Below are positions 12,972 through 15,792 of a DNA stretch of 28,401 nt, piece by piece (position 1 is the stretch's first letter; each line of letters begins with the position of its first letter). The position numbers were made by a program, and so were the translations under genes. Origin of the DNA: Saccoglossus kowalevskii (lineage: Eukaryota > Hemichordata > Enteropneusta > Harrimaniidae); NCBI RefSeq assembly GCF_000003605.2, contig NW_003108083.1:1069441-1097841 (forward strand). The letters run 5' to 3'. The notes under the pieces are model-generated. The model saw nothing but the letters and a program-made list of their open reading frames with translations, was not told the DNA's origin and searched no databases.

Positions 12972-15792
12972 TTAATTAGCTCCCACAGTGAATTTGCTCT
13001 TGATGCCTTCATAGAATCCATGAAGCCAGCCATAACCAGTCTTGTATTGTTTATGTCCATCAGCGATTGTTTTGTTGATCGATTTTGTAATCTCTGTCTT
13101 GGCCATTTTCCCACTGATCACTGAAGTCAACCAGTCCAGACCTTCGTACAGACCATCACCTTCAATGGAAATCGCTCCCTGCACATCTGAAAATAAAAAT
13201 ATACCTGAAATTTAAATACTTGCTCATCTACAACCCCTTTTTGATACTTTTTATAGTTATCAATACAATCTATATCAGATGTTAAAAACTGGTTGCCCAT
13301 TGGGACAACCATGAAAATAACAGATTGACCTAACTGCAATCTAGTGAAGAATGAGTCAAAGCTACTTATAGTAAAAGTATAATCTTGATACTTACATATT
13401 TTTCTGTCTCTGTATTTCTCTAACTGTAATTTATCTCTGATTTCATCAGGAGTCATTGCATTTGCCAAATCTTGTTTATTAGCAACAACAAGAATTGCTG
13501 ATTCTCTCAGTTCATCTTCCCCAATCAATCTTTCCATCTCTTCTTTAGCCTCTGAAAATCGCTCCCTATCACTGCTGTCTATTACAAACACTATCCCATC
13601 TGTATTTGCATAATAATGTCTATACAGGGGTCTCTGTGGTATAAACAAAAATGGTATAATTGATATGTATATCACTGTCTCCATGGTGTAAATAAAAGTG
13701 GTATAATTGGCATATATTGAATATAGTTTTGTTAGTAAAAGTGGTATAATTGACAAATTGTACAATGGTCTATGGTGTAAACATAAGTGGTATAAATACA
13801 AATGTAGCATATTTGAGGTGATGAGAACAAACGTCACATAAAATTGGTATGAATTACAAAAATGTGATGTAAACATATAATTAAATGAATTTAGACATTT
13901 GAGAGAAAATATATTTAGATAAATTTATGAAGGAAGTAAATTTCTAGTTGAATTCACATTAACTCTGGAAATGCATGTCCACCTGCATAAATTTTAGTAC
14001 AATGTTAATTTTGGCCCCAATAGGCATGATTTTCCATTGGTTATAATACATCTTAATCAAAAATTTTGAAGCAGCAGAAAAAAACTATGTGGGTGAATTT
14101 ATTTTGTCAAAGATATGTGATAATACTAGCAGACTGATTTTATTAACACAGTAAAATATGTCACGTTACACATACCGATATGTCATAATTATAGACGGAC
14201 TTCCCACCATTCTTCCACCAAAATCCCATGTTTGAAATTTTACATTTTTATATTCCATCGGCTCAACACCTACAAAATGAGCAAATGTTGACCTATAGAG
14301 GGCGCTAATACCACAAATGTGAAATAATTCAGTTGGCAACCAAAATACTATTTCTCAGCTGGTGTGATTTATGAACAAATGTCTAATTATTGATATTATC
14401 AATATCATGTCAATCTATACTAAAATCCTGCTTTTATTTAAAATTATTATTACTATATACTTGTGATATCTTGTATGTGTAGCCATTTGCTCTTTCCAGA
14501 TAAGTCTTTCATTAAATCCTTTTTGCTAATTTTCTGGTTATTTGTTTGTTTTTTAATATATCTATGTGAGTTTTTATAGGAAAAGTAATACATAGCCACT
14601 AGTTTCCTATTTCTTAATATCTTTAAACTGTGCGAATGATTATAGATTACAAAGTGACTTACAATTTTACCTCTGCCACCAACATCCCATGTTGTGAAAG
14701 AAATTCCTTTATGTTCTACTGTTTCAACATTGAAGCCTATAATTAAACAGTATATATTATTTATAATATATGATTTTTTTTTGTCTTATTTATTTCTAAT
14801 ATCAGTAATTTGAACATTTCTAGCTGTACTGTGTCCATCTTATAAGCTAATATGAAATATTAGTTCCTTACAATGGCATGTCTGCTACAGTAATATGCAC
14901 ACCGTTTTGATTCAAAAACTGTTACTCTTCTTGTTAGGAACAATGTATAATTAAGTATCAACTATTATATTTTGATGTGTAGAGACAATGTTGGAACAGA
15001 TCACTGAACATCATACGAATTGTACGCTTCACGAGCTGGATGTACATACATGTACTTCTTCATGAACTGCGATAGCCGGAATAAATGAAACTGAAAAACG
15101 ATTATATTCTCATTTTTTCCCACTTACTTATATTCATATGTGTAAAACTACACCTTTTAAATCTGACTTGCAATGTGAACAATTGAAAAAAAAATGATTT
15201 GAGTTGGTTCAAAAGCTGAAATAATTAAGGTGGGAGAGCGTCACCTGCGCACATGCCGGAATTAAGTCCCAAGTGATGATAACAACACATGCTAAAAATG
15301 CAAAGGCTCATGGGTAGACGCTTATTTGTAACAATGACACGCTATGGCCATCTGGCGCAGGTGACGACTTCCCCCTTTAAAGGCGGTGGTTGTCGTGCAG
15401 CGCGTGTTCGAATTTCATGTAAATATACAATGTATTTTAATACATGCGTTGTGTACGTCGCTATGAGTCCCATATCGAACAGGACGCGGCACGACGACTG
15501 CCGCCCTTTAAAATAGCGTAAATTTAAAATAATTTACCCTTTACTCACCTATAGTGGGTATTGTTGTAACAACTTCGCCAAGTTTTAATTTATATAAAAG
15601 TGTTGTTTTCCCAGCAGCGTCAAGTCCTGCAAGATATGAATAAACAAATTCCGTAATATAAAAAAATACAAAAATGCTATTTTCTGATAACAAAAATCGT
15701 TAAAAATTTTTTTACAAATTCTTACCCATCATTAACAGACGCACTTCTTTCTTTCTGAACAGTTTTGTGAAAATTGAAAAATTGATTCCCAT
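12972..15792 (-). CDS. ARF-family small GTPase, 5 exons, 223 aa, atypical core and C-terminal extension
   Basis: Exons in transcript order: 15792-15726, 15626-15549, 14736-14663, 13633-13396, 13186-12972 (TAA). They total 672 nt in frame, and all donors are GT. Met1-Gly2 with Ser6 (MGINFS) fits an N-myristoylation signal. GTPase motifs: P-loop GLDAAGKTT (23-31), switch I Thr in IPTIGFN (T47), WDVGGR (65-70), NKQD (125-128). Position 70 is Arg where ARF1 has catalytic Gln71. The G5 motif is ISI (158-160) in place of Cys-Ala-Thr. After [10 protein letters not shown] the protein runs about 43 residues beyond the usual ARF end, with a basic tail rich in Lys, Ser and aromatic residues. Expected role: myristoylated membrane-traffic or cilium GTPase with reduced intrinsic hydrolysis. 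It is closest to ARF/ARL but not assignable to a named ARL. The gene diverges from ZMYND12 and has a duplicate switch exon at 14208-14269. Confidence 0.9.
13634..13815 (-). repeat. Degenerate minisatellite in ARF-like intron 3
   Basis: GTGGTATAA recurs at irregular 20-70 bp spacing (about 13636, 13699, 13740, 13788), often with ATGGTGTAAA and a nearby AAAAGTGGTATAATTG block. As a result, the minus-strand frame of exon 4 stays open far into the intron, giving a long but spurious reading frame. Confidence 0.55.
13816..14207. other. Remainder of ARF-like intron 3 between exon 4 and the alternative switch exon
   Basis: AT-rich sequence with no recognised repeat or further exon. On the minus strand the end nearest the alternative exon (14170-14207) contains an in-frame TAA just past it and a consensus-like donor GTATGT at 14175-14170. 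Confidence 0.5.
14208..14269 (-). CDS. Alternative (duplicated) switch I/II exon of the ARF-like gene
   Basis: After an acceptor TTTTGTAG, the minus strand reads, with the G from exon 2, [21 protein letters not shown]. It aligns to [25 protein letters not shown] of the constitutive exon: 11 of 19 aligned residues match, about two thirds at DNA level. Acceptor phase 1 and a phase-0 donor (ATG|GTGGGAAG) match the other copy, so swapping keeps frame (isoform of 219 aa). It lacks the Phe-Asn after PTIG (ARF1 Phe51 is a principal effector contact) and has Met in place of Gly-Lys-Ile. The donor is weak, and a stronger GTATGT 33 bp downstream would shift the frame. It could be a functional alternative exon or a decaying duplicate. 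Confidence 0.7.
14663..14736 (-). CDS. Constitutive switch I/II exon of the ARF-like gene
   Basis: It encodes the second half of switch I through the start of switch II, ending WDVGGRGKI before a strong GTAAGT donor. An earlier GT (after AGAG) is possible but would break the frame into exon 4 (RPLYRHYY), so the GTAAGT donor was chosen. Its neighbour 393 bp downstream in transcript order is the diverged copy. Confidence 0.88.
15225..15381 (-). mobile_element. MITE family M4, copy a (TTTAA-ended, TCACCTGCGCA termini)
   Basis: TTAAGGTGGGAGAGCGTCACC at the left and GGTGACGACTTCCCCCTTTAA at the right are imperfect inverted repeats, with TCACCTGCGC mirrored by GCGCAGGTGA. The interior (AAAAATGCAAAGGCTCATGG, GACACGCTATGGCCATCTG) matches the inverted copy at 21608-21772. 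Confidence 0.85.
15376..15512. mobile_element. MITE family M5 with about 40-bp inverted repeats
   Basis: TTTAAAGGCGGTGGTTGTCG and onward to GTTCGA is mirrored from TCGAACAGGACGCGGC to CGACTGCCGCCCTTTAAA. The element is 137 bp, GC-rich at its ends, and shares a TTTAAA with the preceding M4 element, so one inserted at the edge of the other. No coding capacity. Confidence 0.82.

Follow-up and report, generated by a model that had tools for sequence, protein, structure and literature searches.

A diverged copy of the switch exon in an ARF1-class GTPase gene of Saccoglossus kowalevskii, possibly kept as an alternative coding exon

Introduction

Is the second, diverged copy of the switch exon in an ARF gene of Saccoglossus kowalevskii an alternative coding exon, or the remnant of a duplication? 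Duplicated alternative exons are already known in many genes, and a frameshift on joint inclusion is a recognised route to mutually exclusive exons, according to the part of PMC5740500 cited here. None has been described for an ARF switch among the matches listed in the open-licence literature, and three papers on exons of this type (PMC9741552, PMC3228551 and PMC5740500) use neither ARF nor ADP-ribosylation as a word in their main text. The original prediction for this locus was a pair of mutually exclusive duplicate exons for the switch region, here called e3 and e3b, in a stretch of 28,401 nucleotides of contig NW_003108083.1 (the window).

Results

The window contains an ARF gene on its minus strand, with five exons and one additional exon-like copy, in nuclear DNA of a 572-Mb assembly (Table 1). 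Splicing exons 2 and 4 to e3 gives a 223-residue ARF, and splicing them to e3b gives a 219-residue form; both frames are open, and either exon alone keeps the frame into RPLYRHYY, as had been predicted. Both forms score well above the Pfam Arf cut-off (22.3 bits), with 233.3 bits for the e3 form and 209.0 bits for the e3b form. The closest solved structures to the gene product in a PDB search were 3aq4 and 3lrp (255 bits). Among solved structures, the predicted protein is nearer to ARF1-class proteins than to ARLs, and by its sequence we place the gene in the ARF1 class.

Table 1. Exons and alternative splice sites of the ARF gene (window positions; a slash marks the exon-intron border).
Feature	Position	Strand	Description	Splice-site score or basis
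Exon 1	15726..15792	-	start codon at 15792, N-terminus MGINF	spliced translation
Exon 2	15549..15626	-	P-loop GLDAAGKTT through PTIG, phase 1 at end	spliced translation
Exon 3 (e3)	14663..14736	-	resident interswitch/switch II exon, 25-aa segment	acceptor 4.8, donor 5.4 bits
Alternative e3 donor GAG/gtaaaa	exon end 14671	-	omits last 8 nt of e3, 14663..14670	5.6 bits, vs 5.4 for donor at e3 end
Exon 3b (e3b)	14208..14269	-	diverged e3 copy, 21-aa segment	acceptor 6.1, donor 7.0 bits
e3b extension to rival donor TCG/gtatgt	14176..14207, first intron base 14175	-	breaks frame into exon 4	6.4 bits
Exon 4	13396..13633	-	RPLYRHYY to KI, NKQD motif	spliced translation
Exon 5	12972..13186	-	C-terminal extension of ~44 residues, stop TAA	

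The gene shares the P-loop, TIPTIG, WDxGG and NKQD with ARF1-class GTPases, and its intron after PTIG has a counterpart in the ARF1 gene of the same genome. It differs from that class in having an Arg in place of the catalytic Gln of switch II, a C-terminal extension and a duplicated switch exon. The catalytic glutamine is Gln71 of ARF1; the Arg is found in e3 and e3b alike. An ARF of this sequence may hydrolyse GTP poorly, or may rely on another mechanism. The exon 5 extension lies beyond the ARF domain: the gene itself apart, own-genome matches end by query residue 179, with one weak exception (E 0.32).

Elsewhere in the window, an open stretch with an armadillo repeat lies at 6882-7175 (+), and further open stretches at 17895-20582 (+) are on the strand opposite to the ARF gene. 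One of the latter has weak TPR matches under the Pfam cut-offs, and the first, which has no Pfam match, looks MYND-like on visual inspection only. At 1315-1643 and 21823-22152 there are tandem repeats, of periods 94 and 170 nt. The mitochondrial contig (C4830, 17,037 bp) carries a COX1 stretch with ATA at Ile positions (6/7) and TGA at Trp positions (4/5); AGA and AGG were absent from the stretch compared.

The two exons are homologous, on the minus strand and with the borders predicted for them. In a scan for splice-compatible, phase-compatible, open exons, e3b scored 62 against e3, or 45% of the e3 self score of 137. When the intron region was dinucleotide-shuffled 200 times, no splice-compatible candidate scored above 28, which rules out chance similarity; the best candidate on the other strand of the window scored 18. 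Both exons (74 and 62 nt) have GT-AG borders, start at phase 1 and end at phase 0, in agreement with the original prediction. Similar length, splice-site type and reading frame are among the features by which homologous mutually exclusive exons are recognised (PMC3228551), as is homology, and e3 and e3b share these four. The predicted duplicate exons of the switch region thus stand as a homologous, phase-compatible and separately usable pair covering the interswitch and the beginning of switch II.

Taken alone, the 21 residues of e3b match Pfam Arf with E 8.7e-4 and 19.2 bits, which is under the family cut-off. With E values up to 10 allowed, the peptide has 56 matching PDB sequences, all of which bear the name of an ARF, of an ARL or of a fusion protein containing one. 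At the DNA level e3b has at least one place in the genome, and one was found (the search gives lower bounds). A search with the peptide gives four places. One is e3b itself; the others, at E values from 0.16 to 0.47, are the ARF1 gene (C4208), the ARL1-like gene (C4661) and e3.

Within this family, e3b most likely derives from the e3 of its own gene, because a Thr before the Trp and an Arg after the Gly-Gly are common to e3 and e3b and absent from four paralogs (the ARF1, ARF6-like, ARL1-like and C1946 genes of the same genome). Another ARF or ARL was rejected as the source: the ARL1-like gene equals e3 in raw identity to e3b (38/57 nt and 11/19 residues in both comparisons, 67% at the nucleotide level over the exon body), but the Thr and Arg occur only in e3 and e3b. 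The His and Gly of e3 are unseen in the four paralogs, as are the Pro, Met and Phe of e3b; three more differences are not assignable to either copy. A class II ARF-like gene on contig C763 is unusable for comparison with e3b since the contig ends before the switch exon, and its 5' exons had no clear location among the own-genome matches listed.

Splice sites were scored with generic animal weights rather than ones trained on this species. With these weights the exon 2 donor, TAG/GTGAGT, has the top score among the 1555 GT sites of the strand, and both sites of e3b score higher than those of e3. Joining e3 and e3b whole causes a frameshift and a TAA at the tenth codon of e3b, as predicted, and omitting both also breaks the frame. 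The further claim that the arrangement enforces exclusivity is correct for full-length e3 and fails for e3 ending at the internal donor GAG/gtaaaa, which is in frame with e3b. With 11 donors and 12 acceptors passing fixed score limits, and internal exons of 25-200 nt taken singly or in pairs, three chains are open and in frame between exons 2 and 4: e3, e3b, and shortened e3 followed by e3b. As far as these frames go, mutually exclusive use of the two exons is not strict.

In the third chain, Gly-Lys-Ile would give way to 22 residues inserted ahead of the RPLY of exon 4, and the protein would gain a second interswitch/switch II stretch. The internal donor scores marginally above the one at the e3 end, and RAC1B, with its 19-residue in-frame insertion directly behind switch II, is a precedent (PMC6356296, in part). 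However, the internal donor has no G at +5, shortened e3 joined straight to exon 4 breaks the frame, and exon 3b of RAC1B is not presented as a copy of an adjacent exon in the part of that paper cited here. We regard tandem inclusion as the role of e3b as very improbable.

The stop codon reached when whole e3 and e3b are joined could instead be the purpose of e3b. As a poison exon, included with e3 or through a downstream donor, it would lead to a premature stop and lower the mRNA level, and any alternative protein would be beside the point. The well-scoring sites of e3b would promote such inclusion, and the rival donor 32 nt downstream of the e3b donor, of comparable score, leaves the exon in the wrong phase at its end. 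A poison exon would not, however, need the likeness to an ARF switch that e3b has preserved. The usual mark of poison exons is nucleotide conservation across species. We think it unlikely that e3b has this function.

Intron pairing that would choose one exon was rejected, as 47, 13 and 43 of 60 shuffles paired equally well or better for the three intron pairs. Rfam gave no match at gathering scores in the whole window. Just upstream of exon 4, at 13640-13804, a 29-nt repeat occurs in four imperfect copies at a spacing of 43-47 nt.

The protein encoded by e3b differs from its relatives mainly in spacing. Seven of eight own-genome ARF-family segments, e3 included, have a distance of 19 from the PTxG glycine to the GG, and the TRIM23-like gene has 20; e3b has 17. 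From the GG to the next Arg the distance is 6 in all seven segments counted, e3 included, and 4 in e3b. Segments with a missing motif or incomplete sequence were left out: C3233, C3847 and C3428 from the first count, and these together with C2510, a weak match (E about 0.02), from the second. The PTxG glycine is followed by FN or SN in 9 of 11 own-genome segments, e3 included, and by FH and FS in the other two. As had been noted originally, the Phe-Asn after PTIG is absent from e3b and the GGRGKI junction is changed, with Met in place of Gly-Lys-Ile. In the alignment with e3, a single 6-nt gap directly behind the first base of the exon accounts for the Phe-Asn loss. At the opposite end, the presumed ancestral donor position of e3b now reads GGAAGTC, and an in-frame donor, ATG/gtggga, lies upstream of it. 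The ancestral donor thus looks destroyed, on an alignment that hangs on a short anchor and could be wrong. By sequence, then, e3b has two residues fewer at each end of the interswitch, and a nearly fixed spacing of the family is broken.

Such losses are what might be seen if e3b were a fading duplicate, a pseudo-exon skipped as part of an intron whose open frame is a remnant: codons have gone from both ends of the interswitch and the original donor is presumably lost. Against this, the splice sites of e3b are no weaker in score than those of e3, there is no stop, and with the chosen donor the net change in length preserves the frame.

Measures of constraint bear on the same question. Between e3 and e3b, dN is 0.35 and dS is 0.96 (NG86, 19 codons). 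In a branch test under a codon model, the free branch for e3b beat neutrality by a 2dlnL of 2.2, which is not significant, and several branch lengths were saturated or at bound. Eight residues are invariant across e3 and the four paralogs, and e3b retains seven of them, with Val replaced by Met. In simulated neutral decay from the inferred ancestor, the AG of the acceptor, an open frame and 7 or more of these 8 residues were all retained with a probability of 0.29 at 6 substitutions, 0.04 at 12, 0.004 at 20 and 0.001 at 25. A copy with just 6-12 substitutions could therefore have kept these features while fading, and this and the non-significant test both favour a pseudo-exon.

The flanks may bear on the age of e3b. 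Over the 60 nt of intron next to each copy, the two align no better than shuffles (the observed score was reached by 498/500 shuffles upstream and 104/500 downstream), and the same is true of the downstream 200-nt flanks (306/500). The upstream 200-nt flanks score above most shuffles, with 4/500 reaching the observed score, in AT-rich sequence and against shuffles that preserve single-base content only. In simulations of co-duplicated flanks, the probability that neither flank scored above 18 was 0.015 at 0.3 and 0.125 at 0.4 substitutions per site per copy. Flanks that were duplicated with the exon mostly stay alignable below ~0.4 substitutions per site per copy in these simulations, which corresponds to ~23 substitutions in the exon body. 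We used this probability since the exact observed pair of scores (10 and 18) has a probability of at most 0.01 at every divergence simulated, an upstream score this low being unusual even between unrelated sequences.

If 60 nt of flank or more were copied along with the exon, these results favour e3b being an old copy with past constraint, because the exon is still 67% identical to e3 while the adjoining introns have lost their homology. This is also a point against a fading duplicate. If only the exon was duplicated, the flank argument for constraint is void.

Discussion

Our tentative reading, to which we give a probability of roughly 0.42, is that e3b arose long ago by tandem duplication of exon 3 in a diverged gene of the ARF1 class and has been retained as an alternative coding exon, which would replace e3 in some transcripts. 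This figure, and the weight given in words to each of the three rival readings, is a judgement from base rates and the sequence evidence. The reading is supported by homology, compatible phases, an open frame and splice signals no worse than those of e3. It is weakened by the constraint test and by the odds of neutral retention at few substitutions; by the Val to Met change, the loss of Phe-Asn, the two altered spacings and the state of the ancestral donor; by a frame-breaking rival donor close downstream and by intron pairing that does not rise above shuffles; and by the score of the upstream 200-nt flanks.

Two surveys give base rates for candidates of this kind. Of 65 exons predicted by WebScipio on the Drosophila X chromosome, 26 were already annotated in FlyBase (PMC3228551, in part). 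In human, 1,722 exons were newly predicted in introns; 654 exons of this kind are verified at the one-junction level and 1,090 remain candidates, by the portion of PMC5740500 cited. Unconfirmed candidates are thus common, which adds to the case for e3b being a fading duplicate, a reading that we consider a serious possibility, if a doubtful one.

Under the alternative-exon reading, exon 3 would have been duplicated in tandem within the gene, and the copy would be spliced in instead of e3 in some transcripts. The resulting protein would retain the P-loop, NKQD and the core of the interswitch, with the interswitch joined to switch I and switch II by linkers that are two residues shorter on each side. 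Transcripts joining both whole exons would reach the premature stop and presumably undergo nonsense-mediated decay. Loss of this joint product would favour the use of one exon or the other, and would still allow the shorter tandem form.

What could shorter linkers do to an ARF? An interswitch toggle and register change have been described for ARF (PMC12554972), and GEF-bound Arf1-GDP shows a two-residue shift of the interswitch (PMC3769224), each as given in the part of the paper cited. Because ARF activation employs this two-residue shift (PMC3769224, in part), paired losses of two residues could alter the switch. With both linkers shortened, the interswitch of the e3b form could be locked or pre-shifted. 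It is a long shot that splicing selects either an ARF that toggles or one whose interswitch is locked or pre-shifted, the latter possibly acting as a dominant regulator of the former. Were e3b used, one gene would yield a pair of ARFs distinguished solely by the region that senses the nucleotide and contacts GEFs, GAPs and effectors, and the two-residue changes flanking the interswitch would be a natural test of the interswitch-toggle model.

RAB6A, KRAS4A/4B and GNAO1 are other GTPase genes with alternative exons. These concern other regions or families than the exon pair described here; in KRAS the alternative exons span the end of the G domain and the hypervariable region. The exons collected by WebScipio and in the human atlas of mutually exclusive exons (PMC3228551 and PMC5740500, both cited in part) are closer in kind. 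Like e3 and e3b, they are neighbouring and homologous, with equal phases, GT-AG borders and no stop; the length difference of our pair is inside the default 20-residue limit, and joint inclusion of the whole exons is frame-breaking. Unlike those exons, the candidate exon e3b has length changes that fall in a conserved spacing, and has a neighbour whose shortened form allows in-frame joint inclusion. RAC1 and RAC1B are a further parallel, as a single small GTPase gene whose switch II region is altered by alternative splicing; the 19-residue insertion of RAC1B makes exchange faster and impairs hydrolysis (PMC6356296, in part). The two systems differ in how the change is made: RAC1B arises by insertion of a cassette exon, whereas e3b is a copy of the switch exon itself that would be able to replace e3.
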